64,000 nt of DNA, taken from the NCBI GenBank assembly GCA_020059465.1, contig JAGVBZ010000020.1, positions 62,001 through 126,000 on the forward strand, given 5' to 3'. The DNA comes from Brevinematales bacterium (GTDB lineage: Bacteria > Spirochaetota > Brevinematia > Brevinematales > GWF1-51-8). Of this stretch, positions 11,351 through 39,388 are shown one piece after another. Each line of letters begins with the position of its first letter. Within the stretch, counting starts at the first letter, position 1. Under the pieces are notes generated by a model that made no database searches, was not told where the DNA came from, and saw nothing but the letters and a program-made list of their open reading frames with translations. A program made the translations under genes and the position numbers.

Positions 11351-11815
11351 TTAATGTGCATCAGGATTTACTCGCTTGTCTCTTTGATCATTTAGCCAAT
11401 CAAGACCTAGTTCAATAAGAATTCGCTGCTTAAAAATGTCTTTATCAACTTCTAATCCACTATCTGGATTCCATTTTACTTCAATTGCTTTCCCACTAGA
11501 AACTAAAAGAGTTTTTATATCTTGCTCTATTTTATCGCCGGAAAACACAATAATAACTGGAATTGGAGTTTTTTGAGCATCCTCTAATGTATAAATTAGT
11601 TTTTGATCTGTTGTACCAGCGCCTAATTGTGATTTAGCTTCAATACCAAGTGTTTTATCATTATACTTTAATACAATGTCAAGATATCTTTTTTTTCCGA
11701 CAAATCTACTTCCTACAAAAGGTTGTCTATAAATTTCCAGATTAGGTATTTCCCAACTAAGAATTTCATTTACTAATGCAGATTCAAAATCAACTCCACT
11801 GTGTGTGCTAGGCAT
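11351..11815 (-). CDS. Probable type II restriction endonuclease, PD-(D/E)XK fold
   Basis: The protein has 154 residues. A PD-(D/E)XK-like catalytic core is visible as YLDIVLKYNDKTLGIEAKSQ (about residues 44-63): Asp at the start and Glu-x-Lys at the end, with an early Glu near residue 11 as a possible fourth ligand. The start codon overlaps the methyltransferase stop (TAATG), so translation is coupled. Pairing with a Dam-type methyltransferase implies a type II restriction enzyme, perhaps cutting a GATC-containing site. Specificity is inference from the partner only. The gene is much more AT-rich than its neighbours, which suggests horizontal acquisition. Confidence 0.7.
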   Translation of the reverse strand: MPSTHSGVDFESALVNEILSWEIPNLEIYRQPFVGSRFVGKKRYLDIVLKYNDKTLGIEAKSQLGAGTTDQKLIYTLEDAQKTPIPVIIVFSGDKIEQDIKTLLVSSGKAIEVKWNPDSGLEVDKDIFKQRILIELGLDWLNDQRDKRVNPDAH

Positions 11816-12771
11816 TATTTTACTCCTACATAGTTGTTTATAATAATTTCGTTGACAAATCCTCTTTTTTCACCATTGCAATTTATCATACGAATTGCTT
11901 TTACCTTTTGAATCTCATAACCATTATATAAATCTTGGAAAAAAGTATCAGTAGGGTTTTCATTTTGGGGATCTGAATTGGATAATAGAATTTTACATCC
12001 ACATCTTGATGCATCAATGAAAAATTCACTAAGTCTAATTTGATCATCATCAGTAAAATTTTCTTTAGAATAACTTTTAAAGTTTGAAGTATTATTAATA
12101 GGTCTATACGGGGGATCAAGGTAAACAAATGTGTTTTTAGTACAGTACTTCTTTACTATACTAAAATCCCCTTTTAGGATTATTGTATCTTGTAAGCTTT
12201 TATGTATTTTTAATATATTATCGCTATCACAAATTTGAGGTTTTTTATAATCACCAAATGGAACATTAAATTCACCCCTACTATTATGACGAAATAATCC
12301 ATTATAACATGTTTTATTTAAGAATATTAGAAAAGAAGCCCTTTTAACCCATTCTATAGAAAAGTTATTATAATTAAAATTAGCTTTTTGTTTATTATAT
12401 TGTTCCCTGATTTTATAATACATTATTTTTCGTGTTGATAATTCCTTTGAAAGGAATTCAGTCTGTAACTCTTCAAGATTCTGTATTAGTGCTTCAGGTT
12501 CATGTTGAATAGTTTTATAAGATATTATTAAGTCTGGATTAATATCAACAATAATTGATTCTTTTATTGAATAATTTCTTTTTAAATAGAAAAAAAATGC
12601 TCCCCCACCTAAGAAGGGTTCAATATATCGATCAATGATATGCGATTCTTTTATATTCAAAGGTAATCGATTTACTAGTGTATTTATTAGTTGAGTTTTT
12701 CCACCAGCCCATTTTAAAAAGGGTTTTGGCAGTGTAGTGGAGTTATTCTGCCCGATTGTTTTTAAGGTCAC
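11815..12771 (-). CDS. Dam-family DNA adenine methyltransferase
   Basis: The protein has 318 residues of the class-alpha D12 N6-adenine methyltransferase type. Motif X/N-terminus is PFLKWAGGKTQL (about residues 17-28), motif I is IEPFLGGGAFFFYL (about 50-60), and catalytic motif IV is YLDPPYRP (DPPY, about residue 217). It has a GTG start with GGAG upstream. Dam-family enzymes usually modify GATC, and this one is paired with an overlapping endonuclease. The AT-rich composition, unlike folC and recF, indicates recent transfer. It reads toward recF. Confidence 0.88.
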   Translation of the reverse strand: MTLKTIGQNNSTTLPKPFLKWAGGKTQLINTLVNRLPLNIKESHIIDRYIEPFLGGGAFFFYLKRNYSIKESIIVDINPDLIISYKTIQHEPEALIQNLEELQTEFLSKELSTRKIMYYKIREQYNKQKANFNYNNFSIEWVKRASFLIFLNKTCYNGLFRHNSRGEFNVPFGDYKKPQICDSDNILKIHKSLQDTIILKGDFSIVKKYCTKNTFVYLDPPYRPINNTSNFKSYSKENFTDDDQIRLSEFFIDASRCGCKILLSNSDPQNENPTDTFFQDLYNGYEIQKVKAIRMINCNGEKRGFVNEIIINNYVGVK

Positions 12772-31401: not shown

Positions 31402-32304
31402 ATGACAGTAGTATCGCTTGGGGTATTTCTCGGCGCGCTCCTCTCGGGATTCGCGTCCATTCTCCTCAGCTTTTTTATCTATCTTAAGTATCGAAAGTTA
31501 GCGATATTATTTTATATTTTTTTCCTGATTTCTTTATTTTTTATCATACTTTATTTCTTTTTTCACCTTTTCGGGGGAATCGCGACCGCCGACGGTGTAA
31601 AACGTGACGAGGGTTTCTTGGATATTATTCAGTTTATCGGGTCTCTCGGATTTATCGCGGTCGCACCGTACTTTTATCATTTTATCATAGGGCTTCGGCT
31701 CACACGTGTAAAAATCATTATCTGGACAGGGTTCGATATTGCGGTGCTTGTCTGCGCGGTAATTTACTATATCACGCGGATCCCGGAAATCGGGTACTAT
31801 ATCCTTGCCCCGTCGATGGCGCTGACGATCGTGTACGGTCTGTACATTGTATTGCGGAATCTGCACGCTGTCGCGGATAAACGCCTCTCCACCGCGTTGA
31901 AAACATTCCTGTGGGTCGGCGCGGGATTTTTCCCCCTCATCCTCCTCGATATGCTCGACACCCGGATATTCGGTATAACGATTTTCCCGTCGGGATTCTT
32001 CGCGCTTCCGCTGTACTATCTGGTACTGAATATTCTGAGTATTATATTTACGATGGTCTATTTCAACAGGCCGGCGTATCTCCAAAACGGCAGACTGACG
32101 GAGTTTTTCACCGGGGAGTACGGGATCACATCACGCGAAGGGGAAATCATTGTGCTTCTGCTCGACGGCGGCAGCAACCGCGAGATCGGCGAAAAACTCT
32201 TCATATCCTATAAAACGGTCGAAAACCATATCTACAGTATCTACCAGAAAACCGGCGTCAAAAACCGTATCGAACTTTTCAACCTCATCCTCTCAAACCG
32301 TTAA
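31402..32304 (+). CDS. Membrane-bound LuxR-type regulator (copy 1)
   Basis: The protein has 300 residues. About seven hydrophobic helices fill residues 5-225. The C-terminal 65 residues are a GerE/LuxR helix-turn-helix (ITSREGEIIVLLLDGGSNREIG, FISYKTVENHIYSIYQKTGVKNRIELFNLI). No receiver domain is present, so the membrane part is probably the sensor. TATAAT (31372-31377) precedes it. Two related proteins lie at 37396 and 38462. The flavodoxin promoter with paired boxes follows directly, which makes this protein a candidate activator for it. Confidence 0.8.
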   Translation: MTVVSLGVFLGALLSGFASILLSFFIYLKYRKLAILFYIFFLISLFFIILYFFFHLFGGIATADGVKRDEGFLDIIQFIGSLGFIAVAPYFYHFIIGLRLTRVKIIIWTGFDIAVLVCAVIYYITRIPEIGYYILAPSMALTIVYGLYIVLRNLHAVADKRLSTALKTFLWVGAGFFPLILLDMLDTRIFGITIFPSGFFALPLYYLVLNILSIIFTMVYFNRPAYLQNGRLTEFFTGEYGITSREGEIIVLLLDGGSNREIGEKLFISYKTVENHIYSIYQKTGVKNRIELFNLILSNR

Positions 32305-32306
32305 AA

Positions 32307-32356
32307 TGAGGGGAATCCCCTATGCCTTTTCCCGCTAATTGAGGGGAAATCCCTAT
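32307..32356 (+). promoter_or_regulatory. Two direct-repeat palindromic boxes upstream of flavodoxin promoter
   Basis: TGAGGGGAATCCCCTAT (32307-32323) and TGAGGGGAAATCCCTAT (32340-32356) are 33 bases apart, close to three helical turns. The second box ends where the flavodoxin -35 begins. The spacing and position fit binding sites for an activator, perhaps the LuxR-type protein encoded just upstream. The repeat is seen; the binding protein is inference. Confidence 0.6.
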
Positions 32357-32409: not shown

Positions 32410-32886
32410 ATGAAAATATTGACGGTCTATTACAGCTATGACGGGAATACGCGGTTTATCGCCGAGACTATCGCGAACGAACTGAACGCGGATATCATGG
32501 AGTTGAAGCCCGTGAAGGAAATGAAGTCGAAGGGCTTTCTCAAGTATGTCTGGGGCGGGGCGATGGTGGCGATGAAGCGGAAGCCCCGGCTTCTGCCGTT
32601 CGATAAAAATCCCGCCGACTATGACCTGATTATTATCGGGACTCCGGTGTGGAATTCCACGATGGCGCCTCCGGTCAGGTCGTTCCTCGACAACTGCAGC
32701 TCCGCCGTGAAACGCGCGGCGCTGTTCTGCTGTTATTCCGGCGGGGTAAGTAAAACGTTCGCGGAAATGAAGGAATTATTGGGGAAATGCATAGCCGCCG
32801 GGGAGCAGGGGTTTTTGGACCCGCTCGGACATAACGAGTCCGATTCGTCGAAAGCCGCCCGCGGATGGGCGAAATCGTTAATATGA
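32410..32886 (+). CDS. Flavodoxin-family protein
   Basis: The protein has 158 residues. The FMN phosphate loop is YYSYDGNTRFIAETIA (about 6-21), the second loop is IIIGTPVWNSTMAPPVRSFLD (about 78-98), and CCYSGGVSKTFAEM is the third. This is a complete flavodoxin fold. The ATG with AAGGAG six bases upstream is preferred over one 15 bases earlier. Its last 58 bases are duplicated at 34756-34813 directly before the 4Fe-4S membrane protein, so these two genes were probably adjacent originally. Confidence 0.85.
   Translation: MKILTVYYSYDGNTRFIAETIANELNADIMELKPVKEMKSKGFLKYVWGGAMVAMKRKPRLLPFDKNPADYDLIIIGTPVWNSTMAPPVRSFLDNCSSAVKRAALFCCYSGGVSKTFAEMKELLGKCIAAGEQGFLDPLGHNESDSSKAARGWAKSLI
32820..32877 (+). 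repeat. 58-bp direct repeat, left copy (flavodoxin 3' end)
   Basis: This segment differs by one base from 34756-34813. It encodes the last residues of the flavodoxin and marks the left border of the inserted hydrolase and barrel genes. Confidence 0.9.
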
Positions 32887-32900
32887 TTAGGAGGAATATT

Positions 32901-33875
32901 ATGATAAAACTGAGTACGGTTCTGTTAATCACGATATGCTTAACAGCCTCATGTGCACCCGGGGTGTGTTTGAACGAATTCAGACTTGTGCCGCCGACGG
33001 TTGCCGAGGACCCGTCGCTGCCTTCTGTGACAATTCATGTATCAGGAAACGATCGGAAAGTCCATTTCCTGACATTCGGAAATCCCCTGCTTCCCCCTCT
33101 CTTTATTTTACACGGATCCTTATCTGATATGCGGCCGTATCTGCCGCTTGCGGTATTATCGAATAAATACTACTGTGTGATGTGGGATATGCGCGGAAAC
33201 GGATTATCGGAGCGGGTCGGTAAAAGCGAACTCACGTATGCCTCGATGGTAGAAGAGATCAAAGCCATGAAAAACATTTTCTCCCCGACCAATAAAATCA
33301 CCCTGCTCGGTCATTCATGGAGTGCGGTTTTTACAGCTTTGTATATCGGAAAATATCCCGCCGATGTCGAACAAGCGGTGTTATTGGAATCCATCGGGCT
33401 TCAATCTGATTCTATGAATAGTATGGAGAGCATCCTCAATCTTGCAACATCGGCTTATCTTGAAATGGCGTATTCGACAGACATACTTTCCCCCTCCACA
33501 CACGAGCTTCTTGATTTCAAGATGCTCGCCATGTTGAAAAGTGCAGTTCGGAACTTTTTTGTCGATAAGAACAACCTCCCCCCATGGCCGGTCTGGCGTG
33601 TCGGAGGTCTTGCTCTGATCGTTTGGGAATCTGAATGTATCTCCGACGGAAAGTATTTGTACGATTTTTCACATGGACTGATGTCCTATCCGGGAAGCGT
33701 ACTGCTTGTCGGTTCCGACCACAGTCCGATTGGTTATGATTTTCAGAATAAGTATAATAAAAACTTATTTTCCAACGCGACTGTTCTCATGATCTCTAAC
33801 TCAGGGCACCGCATCATTACGGAAAACTTTCAAGCCCTGTATGACGGATTGACCAATTTTTTAAATGAGTTTTAG
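32901..33875 (+). CDS. Alpha/beta-hydrolase lipoprotein
   Basis: The protein has 324 residues with lipobox LTASC (Cys about 16). The alpha/beta-hydrolase core shows LFILHGSLSDMRPYL (about 72-86), WDMRGNGLSERV (about 98-109), the nucleophile LLGHSWSAVFTALYIG (about 137-152), a late SDHSPIGYD and a terminal SNSGHRIITEN (His). The pattern resembles proline iminopeptidase or haloperoxidase-like hydrolases. An AGGAGG site lies seven bases upstream. It is in the 1.9 kb segment between the 58-bp repeats and is followed by the barrel gene after nine bases. Confidence 0.75.
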   Translation: MIKLSTVLLITICLTASCAPGVCLNEFRLVPPTVAEDPSLPSVTIHVSGNDRKVHFLTFGNPLLPPLFILHGSLSDMRPYLPLAVLSNKYYCVMWDMRGNGLSERVGKSELTYASMVEEIKAMKNIFSPTNKITLLGHSWSAVFTALYIGKYPADVEQAVLLESIGLQSDSMNSMESILNLATSAYLEMAYSTDILSPSTHELLDFKMLAMLKSAVRNFFVDKNNLPPWPVWRVGGLALIVWESECISDGKYLYDFSHGLMSYPGSVLLVGSDHSPIGYDFQNKYNKNLFSNATVLMISNSGHRIITENFQALYDGLTNFLNEF

Positions 33876-33884
33876 GAGAAAAAT

Positions 33885-34595
33885 ATGAAAGGAATTTTCC
33901 TCATCGTAATATCGGGTTTAGTGTTCATTTCCGTACCTGTATTCTCACAATCCCTATCCGACCCGCATCGTCTTGAAACAGGTTTTAACGCCTATTCCAT
34001 GCTTGCCTTGTTCCAAGGGTATTCTTACACCATTGATTTTTCAGATAGCGACTTGTTATCGTTGAGCGGAGTTATAGAAATTCCCGCCTTGCTCTGGCTC
34101 TCAAAAGGCTCGATTAATGGACTGAGAATCAAAGCCGGAGCGGAGTATAGTTATCGTTTTCCATTTTTGATGGAGGCCGGTATCGGGCTTTTTCCGACGT
34201 GTATGTTCCAGAGTCAGCTTCTCGGGTATTTCCAGACGTTAGGTGTGGAAGGCAGAATATTCGCAGGGATATTTTTGGCGAATACACATATCGGTGTTTT
34301 TGCAGATATTCAGTGTTCGCTTTTGACGTTTGTTCAGCTTTCAAGCTTTTCCCTGTCGGCGTTTGACGATCGAGTTCCGGGAAGTGTTCTCCCAACGGTA
34401 TCAGGGGTTATCACCTTGACGTCTTTTAATACTATCGTCGGGCTGTACGGTTATTTTGATATAGGAGGCGGAACAGTTCTGAAAACCGAACTCGGCATGA
34501 AATTCACTCCCAGTGAGTACGTCGATTTCGGCGGGGGGATGATGTTCGGTCTATTGCCGTTTCACTTAACCGTGTCGCTTTCGTACGGGATATGA
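33885..34595 (+). CDS. Outer-membrane beta-barrel-like protein
   Basis: The protein has 236 residues with a signal peptide (MKGIFLIVISGLVFISVPVFS). Alternating hydrophobic/polar strands with Gly/Ser turns end in LTVSLSYGI, as in outer-membrane barrels of this genome (compare the FGYGI end of the protein at 3459-4022). It is paired with the hydrolase lipoprotein inside the repeat-flanked insertion. No family is recognised. Confidence 0.6.
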   Translation: MKGIFLIVISGLVFISVPVFSQSLSDPHRLETGFNAYSMLALFQGYSYTIDFSDSDLLSLSGVIEIPALLWLSKGSINGLRIKAGAEYSYRFPFLMEAGIGLFPTCMFQSQLLGYFQTLGVEGRIFAGIFLANTHIGVFADIQCSLLTFVQLSSFSLSAFDDRVPGSVLPTVSGVITLTSFNTIVGLYGYFDIGGGTVLKTELGMKFTPSEYVDFGGGMMFGLLPFHLTVSLSYGI

Positions 34596-34755
34596 CGCGA
34601 AGTTAATACCAGTAGATGTACGGCATACTCGAACTATTAGTTTTTTTATTCCGATGTAAGGCTTGATGATGCATCAGCAGGAATGTCTCTTTGCCGGGCT
34701 GTTATATGAAAGCAATATTTTTAAAGGGTACTCGTAAATTAATAAATAAATACTG

Positions 34756-34813
34756 CCCGCTCGGACATAACGAGTCCGAATCGTCGAAAGCCGCCCGCGG
34801 ATGGGCGAAATCG
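34756..34813 (+). repeat. 58-bp direct repeat, right copy (orphan flavodoxin 3' end)
   Basis: This segment is identical to 32820-32877 except one base. In frame it reads the flavodoxin C-terminus and continues SLLK and a stop, but no flavodoxin gene precedes it. It is therefore a scar left by insertion or duplication. The upstream 160 bases hold no gene. Confidence 0.9.
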
Positions 34814-34837
34814 CTTCTCAAATAACGGAGGATAATC

Positions 34838-35572
34838 ATGAAACAGAAAGTAAGACGTTCGATCATACTCATATCGTTTTTCCTGTTCCCGGTTACCATG
34901 TTCTATTTCTCGCCGTACCTGATTATAATGGCGGGGATCGGGGGAATTGTCGCGGGGAGCGCAATCATGTTCGCCGCGCAGTTCGCTCTCTCGTTATTTC
35001 TCGGAAGGGCGTTCTGCGGATGGGTGTGCCCGGCGGGCGGGGTGCAGGACGCTTGCGCGATCGCGAACCGGAAGCCCCTGCGGTCGAAAAAAGCCGGCTG
35101 GGTCAAGTACTTTATCTGGGCGCCGTGGGTAGTAACGGTAATCCTCATGTTCGTCCGCGCGGGCGGTATTAAGGGTATCGACCCGTTCTTCGGGACAGAG
35201 TACGGGATATCGGCCGCGAGGCCAGAGGCGTATATTATTTATATCCCGATTCTCGCGCTCATTGTTATCCCTGCGCTATTTTTCCGCAGGCGCCTGTTCT
35301 GTCACAGCATCTGCTGGATGGCGCCGTTCATGGTGCTAGGCAGAAAGCTCGGGAATCTCCTGCATATCCCGTCGCTGCGTCTCCGCCCGGATCAGTCGAA
35401 ATGCACGTCATGCCTGACCTGCGAGGGCGCGTGCCCGATGAGCCTGCCGGTCAGCGCTATGGTCGCGAGGGGTGATATGGAGAATACGGAATGCGTGCTG
35501 TGCGGGGAATGCACATCGGCATGCAGGCAGAACGTCATCCGCTTCGGTTTCGGACAGCGGAGAAAAACCTGA
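34838..35572 (+). CDS. NapH/YccM-like 4Fe-4S membrane protein
   Basis: The protein has 244 residues with four or five membrane helices. The characteristic periplasmic-side motif FCGWVCPAGGVQDAC (about 61-75) and a second FCHSICWMAPF (about 152-162) are followed by two C-terminal ferredoxin-like clusters, CTSCLTCEGACPM (about 192-204) and CVLCGECTSACRQNV (about 220-234). Such proteins pass electrons across the membrane between quinol and soluble or periplasmic carriers. It likely worked with the flavodoxin now 1.9 kb upstream. Confidence 0.85.
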   Translation: MKQKVRRSIILISFFLFPVTMFYFSPYLIIMAGIGGIVAGSAIMFAAQFALSLFLGRAFCGWVCPAGGVQDACAIANRKPLRSKKAGWVKYFIWAPWVVTVILMFVRAGGIKGIDPFFGTEYGISAARPEAYIIYIPILALIVIPALFFRRRLFCHSICWMAPFMVLGRKLGNLLHIPSLRLRPDQSKCTSCLTCEGACPMSLPVSAMVARGDMENTECVLCGECTSACRQNVIRFGFGQRRKT

Positions 35573-37368: not shown

Positions 37369-37395
37369 ATGATAATACTAATTTCGGAAGAATTT

Positions 37396-38322
37396 ATGCC
37401 GGTTACTCAGATTACAATAAACATGGTCTCAATTATTCTGGGCCTTATCGTGTTGATTTTAGCGGTTATTATCGCGTTCATGTTCCGGCTCAGAGAAGTC
37501 GGTTACTATATAGTGATTCAGACTGTACTGGTGACTTATTCTATCATCGATCTGATATACCGTAGAGGCAATTTTTTCGGATGGGTACTGAGCGGAAAAA
37601 CACCGTTATGGTTCGAACATATCCTCTATCTATTCCTCTTTCTTTCGATCACGTGCTTCGAATTATTTTTTCGTTATGTTTTAGTGAAGGAGAAGAAACC
37701 TGTTTTTTTTATTGCCGCTGTTTTCCTAAGTATTGCCGTTTTTATGCTGGTAATCAGCCCGTATTTCATCGATCCTGTTTCCCATGTCCCGATAATCGGT
37801 TATTATTTCTATGCGGTGATATTTTTATTGATGTCGGCGGTTACTTTTACCGATATCATCATCAACCATAGAAAAATTGAAGACCGCAAGCTTTCCTATA
37901 CAGCCCTAATCTTTGCTATTTTTCTGGTTGTGGCGCTGGGGTTTCAGATTGCGGATGAAATCAATAAGTACATTTTAGATTCCCATGATAAAACCCTCGA
38001 ATTCAGTGCAGTTCAGCCGGCGCTTTTTCTTTTATGGAATACAGTTGTCATCGTGTTCGCCAATCATTATTTTACCGCGAAAACAACCGTGTTCCCTGAA
38101 GTAAAAATCAAGATACCGGAAATCATGGATGAGTTTCATTTGAGCGAACGCGAAACCGAGATTATCGCGCATCTCTGTTTAGGATACTCGAATCGAGAAG
38201 TCGGCGGGCACTTATTCATTTCCGATCTTACCGTAAAAACCCATGTCAGGAATATCTATCAGAAGCTCGGCGTAAAAAACCGTCTGGAACTTCTCGATAA
38301 AGTCTCGCGTTTCAAGGATTAG
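37396..38322 (+). CDS. Membrane-bound LuxR-type regulator (copy 2)
   Basis: The protein has 308 residues with about seven hydrophobic helices (residues 8-230). It ends in a LuxR/GerE helix-turn-helix: LSERETEIIAHLCLGYSNREVG and FISDLTVKTHVRNIYQKLG. Architecture and sequence are close to the next gene (38462) and more distant from 31402. The start at 37396 is chosen because the earlier ATG lies inside the promoter. It likely senses a membrane or hydrophobic signal; targets are unknown. Confidence 0.8.
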   Translation: MPVTQITINMVSIILGLIVLILAVIIAFMFRLREVGYYIVIQTVLVTYSIIDLIYRRGNFFGWVLSGKTPLWFEHILYLFLFLSITCFELFFRYVLVKEKKPVFFIAAVFLSIAVFMLVISPYFIDPVSHVPIIGYYFYAVIFLLMSAVTFTDIIINHRKIEDRKLSYTALIFAIFLVVALGFQIADEINKYILDSHDKTLEFSAVQPALFLLWNTVVIVFANHYFTAKTTVFPEVKIKIPEIMDEFHLSERETEIIAHLCLGYSNREVGGHLFISDLTVKTHVRNIYQKLGVKNRLELLDKVSRFKD

Positions 38323-38461: not shown

Positions 38462-39388
38462 ATGTCGCAAGTCCTTTTAGGGATTCACCTGACTGCGGTT
38501 ATCATCGGATTTATTGTTCTGATATTATCTGTCTATATCGGACTGCGGCTAAAAATAACAGGGTTGCTGTTTTTTGACGCTATCGAAATATTCCTGATTT
38601 TTAATCTTTGCTCGGTTCTGGTTTACCGCGAGGGGGGGAGATTCGGCTGGGTTTTAGAGGAAGCGCAGGTCTTCGCGCTGAAAAAAGTGATTTATTTTTT
38701 TGTATCCGGCACTATTACAATAATATACCTGTTTTTGGAATTCCTTGTCTATCAGAGAATCCGCTTGTGGAAATGGATTGCCAGTATATCAGTATTAATG
38801 ACATATGTAATTCTTGTGTTCAGCCCGTTTTTTGAAATCGCCGAGACCAGAACGCCTCTATGGGCATATTATGTCTATAATGCGCTGCTTTTCGCTCAGT
38901 TTTTATGGATATATGTTCGGGTAGTCATCCACAGAAAACAGGTGGGTGATAAAAACATGGTTCGTATGGCTAATCTGTTTCTGGTTGTCGGGCCGTTAGG
39001 AATGCTCTATTATTATTTTTTAGAAAGCATGGGCAGGTTTATCAATAAGTCGTCAACGCCGATGGAATATACGTTTCCTTTTCCGGTACTTTTCATTTTC
39101 ATGAATATCGCCATGATTATCTACGGGTTTACCCGGTTTACCGTAAAAACAGTTGTATTATCCGGAATAAAATTCAATCAGCCGAAACTGCAGGAAAAAT
39201 ATCAGTTAAGCGCCAGAGAATTGGAGATTATCAGGTATCTTTGTGACGGACTATCGAACAGGGAGACCGGCGAAAAACTCTATATCTCCGAACTAACCGT
39301 AAAAACCCATGTCCGAAACGTATACAGGAAGATGGAAGTGAAGAACCGTTTGGAACTCCTGGATATAGTATTCCGTTTCAAGGAATAA
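38462..39388 (+). CDS. Membrane-bound LuxR-type regulator (copy 3)
   Basis: The protein has 308 residues. It has seven or so membrane helices followed by a LuxR helix-turn-helix (LSARELEIIRYLCDGLSNRETG, YISELTVKTHVRNVYRKMEVKNRLELLD). It is a tandem paralogue of copy 2; the last 60 residues are very similar while the membrane parts differ more, suggesting the two sense different signals but bind related DNA sites. It has GGAAGGGG before the ATG and its own promoter, so each paralogue is separately expressed. Confidence 0.8.
   Translation: MSQVLLGIHLTAVIIGFIVLILSVYIGLRLKITGLLFFDAIEIFLIFNLCSVLVYREGGRFGWVLEEAQVFALKKVIYFFVSGTITIIYLFLEFLVYQRIRLWKWIASISVLMTYVILVFSPFFEIAETRTPLWAYYVYNALLFAQFLWIYVRVVIHRKQVGDKNMVRMANLFLVVGPLGMLYYYFLESMGRFINKSSTPMEYTFPFPVLFIFMNIAMIIYGFTRFTVKTVVLSGIKFNQPKLQEKYQLSARELEIIRYLCDGLSNRETGEKLYISELTVKTHVRNVYRKMEVKNRLELLDIVFRFKE

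Follow-up and report, generated by a model that had tools for sequence, protein, structure and literature searches.

When two genes stand between near-identical copies of the end of a neighbouring gene, does the repeat record how these genes arrived? The question is raised by a flavodoxin locus in the window (the whole 64-kb stretch of DNA analysed here, belonging to genome G000), where a direct repeat of 58 bp encloses an alpha/beta-hydrolase lipoprotein gene and the gene of a barrel-like secreted protein, hereafter called the pair. We examined the repeat, the gene order in relatives and the relative age of the two features.

The repeat and the genes around it

The features of the locus are collected in Table 1. 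The repeat is present at exactly the coordinates given for it in a preliminary description of this DNA: the two copies are 57/58 identical, with the sole mismatch being GAT in the left copy and GAA in the right one. The longest exact run is 33 bp, compared with 15–17 bp in 20 first-order Markov simulations matched to the sequence composition, and no other direct repeat in the 64-kb window reaches 36 bp. A genome-wide search (3.19 Mb, 48 contigs) found the two copies only. Beyond the repeat the copies diverge sharply, matching at 2/25 positions upstream and 11/25 downstream. The left tail leads into the hydrolase gene and the right one into the 4Fe-4S gene, and the divergence is abrupt at the gene end, where the downstream genes begin to differ.

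The left copy terminates in NESDSSKAARGWAKSLI followed by a stop codon. The right copy, read in register, gives PLGHNESESSKAARGWAKSLLK and a stop codon 11 bp before the ATG of the 4Fe-4S gene, in agreement with the orphan flavodoxin C-terminus (SLLK) described earlier at this place. The repeated segment contains a 6-bp hairpin, and its folding is not unusual (z −0.8). A small open frame at 34707–34826, MKAIFLKGTRKLINKYCPLGHNESESSKAARGWAKSLLK, spans the right repeat; a family search gave no match to it, and it is probably a chance frame.

Table 1. Features of the flavodoxin locus, in window positions (G001, G002 and G003 are the compared genomes of the same genus)
Feature	Positions	Strand	Remarks
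LuxR-type regulator opening the block, membrane N-terminus	31402..32304	+	Pfam GerE; synteny with G001 and G003; G002 keeps a 5′ remnant
Two palindrome-like boxes, TGAGGGGAATCCCCTAT / TGAGGGGAAATCCCTAT, spacing 33 bp	32307..32356	+	between LuxR-type gene and flavodoxin
Flavodoxin, complete, C-terminal SLI and stop	32410..32886	+	Pfam flavodoxin/FMN_red
Repeat, left copy	32820..32877	+	codes flavodoxin C-terminus
Alpha/beta-hydrolase lipoprotein, GHSWSA nucleophile elbow	32901..33875	+	Pfam Abhydrolase_1
Barrel-like secreted protein	33885..34595	+	signal-peptide-like start, strand-rich
AT-rich spacer, 160 bp, GC 0.36	34596..34755	.	
Repeat, right copy	34756..34813	+	orphan flavodoxin 3′ end
Remainder of orphan flavodoxin tail (LLK and stop) and 4Fe-4S gene leader	34814..34837	+	LLK likewise in G003 flavodoxin
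NapH-like 4Fe-4S membrane protein	34838..35572	+	Pfam Fer4_5; directly after flavodoxin in G003

The 4Fe-4S protein matches NCBIfam NapH/MauN below the cut-off, and the nearest profile of the hydrolase, that of proline iminopeptidases (NCBIfam pro_imino_pep_2), scores far below the cut-off. No Pfam match was obtained for the barrel-like protein, and the confidence of its AlphaFold model is too low (pLDDT 40) to allow a fold search. The 160-bp spacer has no counterpart in G001–G003 or in the rest of its own genome; just chance-level matches of 15–36 bp were found. Elsewhere in the window, the listed open frame 11815–12771 has a third-position GC of 0.18, the window median being 0.62.

Gene order in the genus and the ages of pair and repeat

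The window was compared with three genomes of the same genus, namely G001 (MAG Spirochaetes bacterium GWF1_49_6), G002 and G003 (MAG GWF1_51_8). By protein identities G001 and G002 are sisters, G000 branches next and G003 lies outside. In this outgroup the order is luxR-flavodoxin-4Fe-4S, with merely a short intergenic stretch between the last two genes. The uninterrupted order, for which the preliminary description had proposed to look, is thus present in the genus, and it agrees with the proposal that the pair was added into a flavodoxin-4Fe-4S operon. In G001 the order is luxR-flavodoxin-hydrolase-barrel-4Fe-4S, with 10 bp between the flavodoxin stop and the hydrolase start and 24 bp between the barrel stop and the 4Fe-4S start; a second flavodoxin end is absent at the site of the pair. 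Pair-bearing (G001) and pair-less (G003) forms both occur in the genus, the genomes compared being congeners rather than conspecifics. Most of the block has been lost from G002 (L056 2540–4454), where the 5′ part of luxR is fused to the 4Fe-4S leader and the first 68 codons of that gene, and an ankyrin-repeat lipoprotein gene comes next after this remnant.

The repeat had been taken to record the integration of the pair. This is not supported, as G001 carries the pair at the same site without a second repeat. An older pair, with the second repeat absent in relatives, had moreover been named beforehand as the outcome that would overturn this reading, and it is the one that G001 presents.

Compared with their G001 orthologs at the same site, the hydrolase and the barrel protein show 79% and 60% amino acid identity, respectively. 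Their differences between G000 and G001 at fourfold-degenerate positions are 0.68 and 0.69, those of flavodoxin, the 4Fe-4S gene, luxR and several others are 0.27–0.44, and values of 0.60–0.68 are found for other low-GC3 genes whose position is conserved (0.64 for a downstream lipoprotein; 0.60 and 0.68 for two luxR paralogs, measured against G002). Since the fourfold divergence of the pair equals that of syntenic low-GC3 genes, nothing calls for a younger age of the pair than of the genes around it. Its divergence is compatible with vertical inheritance from the ancestor that G000 and G001 share; conceivably, the pair was instead obtained at a later time through exchange with a relative that carried it. 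If the repeat had predated the split of G000 and G001, about 9 or more changes would be expected in the non-coding right copy even at the lowest rate, compared with the one observed in 58. The rough probability of at most one change is then about 0.001 or less, in an estimate that ignores gene conversion. The single mismatch in 58 bp therefore indicates a recent event. As judged from these comparisons, the pair predates the repeat, and the repeat is recent and specific to the G000 lineage.

Possible origins of the repeat

In the strict form of the integration reading, the pair entered recently as a unit, the 58 bp are a target duplication or att core, and G001 acquired its pair separately. As with elements that integrate at gene 3′ ends, the gene end is indeed rebuilt on the left and the native one shifted rightwards, and the occurrence of the hydrolase with a barrel-like neighbour in different surroundings in a distant spirochaete suggests that the pair may move together. 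However, orthologous pairs would have to have been inserted twice, independently, into one and the same gap, in one case without a repeat, and neither a recombinase in the scanned neighbours, a tRNA at the site, terminal inverted repeats bounding the segment nor a second genomic site was found. We consider this course of events quite improbable.

The absence of a transposase or integrase, stated in the preliminary description, was confirmed for the Pfam-scanned genes at 22.0–49.7 kb; 15 further neighbours scanned in this interval gave no Pfam recombinase, and the hydrolase and barrel-like genes stand alone between the repeats, with no transposase. A transposon or integron was rejected, given neither a recombinase nor inverted repeats. 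A tRNA or structured-RNA target was likewise rejected, as the only tRNA is a tRNA-Pro at 19.9 kb and no Rfam match occurs at 32–36 kb. The 58-bp element was also sought, as suggested, at other places with different cargo; no such occurrence was found in its own genome or in IMG/VR.

Judged as an att-type element, the locus has the direct repeat with a reconstituted target gene end, flavodoxin being complete on the left. Cargo-bearing relatives should have both repeats, but G001 has the pair without the second one, and the integrase expected in or near such an element is absent among the Pfam-scanned genes of the same interval. Like integrative elements at gene 3′ ends, the locus combines a gene end rebuilt on one side, an orphan end on the other and a repeat of tens of bases; unlike them, it shows no integrase, tRNA or second site, and the cargo of a relative lacks the repeats. 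It seems scarcely credible that the pair is a small non-autonomous cassette which enters flavodoxin gene ends repeatedly through a 58-bp attachment core, using a recombinase encoded elsewhere.

Of the two copies, the right one preserves the flavodoxin tail better. At the mismatch codon, the right copy has GAA (Glu), the same as G001 and G003, while the left copy has GAT (Asp). Past the repeat, the right copy continues in frame to LLK and a stop codon, where the G003 protein also has LLK, and the left copy ends with I. With its ancestral-looking GAA and LLK, set against the derived GAT and SLI on the left, the right copy can therefore be read as a flavodoxin-4Fe-4S junction that has not decayed; this ancestral-tail argument (SLLK) comprises three residues and one base. 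Together with the 4Fe-4S leader, it looks like the junction of a pair-less allele, and it is from this copy alone that we infer such an allele within the species. The left copy with the hydrolase leader looks like a pair-bearing allele; its tail weakly resembles the spacer between flavodoxin and hydrolase in G001 (shuffle p about 0.03, with other leader pairs scoring alike). As the pair is old in the lineage, a pair-less allele there requires secondary exchange or a persisting polymorphism.

The locus is probably a recombination scar in which pair-bearing and pair-less alleles were merged. The pair would have entered the flavodoxin-4Fe-4S operon before the split from GWF1_49_6, or would have come later from a pair-bearing relative. 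Much later, and in the G000 lineage only, pair-bearing DNA consisting of the flavodoxin 3′ end, the hydrolase and barrel genes and 160 bp would have joined a pair-less flavodoxin-4Fe-4S allele. One junction would be homologous, within the flavodoxin end, and the other illegitimate, or else a circularised fragment would have entered by a single crossover; the illegitimate side or the circularised fragment would have brought the AT-rich spacer. The flavodoxin ends of both alleles would persist, the left one keeping flavodoxin whole and the right one remaining as a dead tail before the 4Fe-4S gene. The pair could be lost again if RecA-type recombination took place between the two copies. The repeat is the shared end of an anchor gene with two different tails kept, which is the mark of homology-facilitated illegitimate or single-crossover recombination, and recombination between alleles would be the simplest single event to leave both junctions in one chromosome.

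A local segmental duplication in the pair-bearing lineage would dispense with the second allele, a flavodoxin 3′ piece being copied before the 4Fe-4S gene by template switch or slippage. G001 has the pair resident at this site, a single event in a single genome would suffice, and the hairpin in the segment is in keeping with such copying. However, the copy must have landed where the following sequence happens to extend the frame with LLK and a stop, like that of G003; the 160-bp spacer is left unexplained, and the fold of the segment is unremarkable. This makes a local duplication rather unlikely.

A layout of this kind is also expected if the metagenome assembly joined two strain haplotypes, one with and one without the pair; the closest relatives are bins from metagenomes, and the assembly of the genome consists of 48 contigs. 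Against such an artefact, the longest exact run of the repeat is short for read overlaps, there are no Ns, and the junction of spacer and repeat lies in unique sequence far inside a 150-kb contig. We regard an assembly origin as very improbable.

The proposed recombination would have counterparts in other bacteria. In E. coli, part of the end of the anchor gene, 109–950 bp in length, is often found duplicated after single-crossover and illegitimate events (PMC3240628). The present locus resembles this lacZ test in that foreign genes are flanked by a partly duplicated anchor-gene end, with no recombinase and no inverted repeats. It differs in the length of the repeat, 58 bp, and in that the donor and the event are inferred here rather than observed. 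For Vibrio T6SS clusters, which contain displaced gene 3′ ends, a mechanism akin to homology-facilitated illegitimate recombination has been proposed (PMC5361080). As in these effector-immunity arrays, a module is anchored by homology at one end and the old gene end is pushed downstream. However, effectors are swapped in many strains there, while the present case is the one known, in a metabolic operon, and shows no sign of selection.

Operon context and source of the pair

The two boxes upstream of flavodoxin are the only close matches in the genome, except for one site with 2 mismatches. Both recur in G001 (L055 3859–3908), and in G003 (L057 5928–5944) one box was scored and the second is visible. 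They likely form a LuxR operator of the flavodoxin operon. Since they are conserved in the genus, the whole block is probably a single LuxR-controlled operon, with a gene order that the scar would not have broken. The gene content and order being intact, nothing points to a new function. Within 8 kb lie three LuxR-type regulators (31402–32304, 37369–38322 and 38462–39388) that are related to one another and have membrane N-termini.

Relatives of the hydrolase were found in 13 of the 393 spirochaete genomes searched. In the distant spirochaete G101 (L085 2432–4143), a hydrolase 51% identical to that of the window overlaps, start to stop, with the gene of a barrel-like secreted protein in an unrelated context; the profile match of this neighbour is weak (E 0.003, probability 11%). 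Given this sparse occurrence and the unrelated context in G101, the genus probably acquired the pair by horizontal transfer at some time. A search for a plasmid source gave a best match of 28% identity to the hydrolase and none to the barrel protein, and a phage search with the hydrolase gave no match.

The scar is most likely ordinary in kind, though clearly polarised by the relatives. A repeat that resembles the footprint of a mobile element here proves later than the insertion that it seems to bracket. If the locus arose by recombination between alleles, pair-less flavodoxin-4Fe-4S alleles are predicted in the same population. The case shows how relatives can serve to date and polarise a two-gene addition to a metabolic operon, here that of an uncultivated spirochaete genus.
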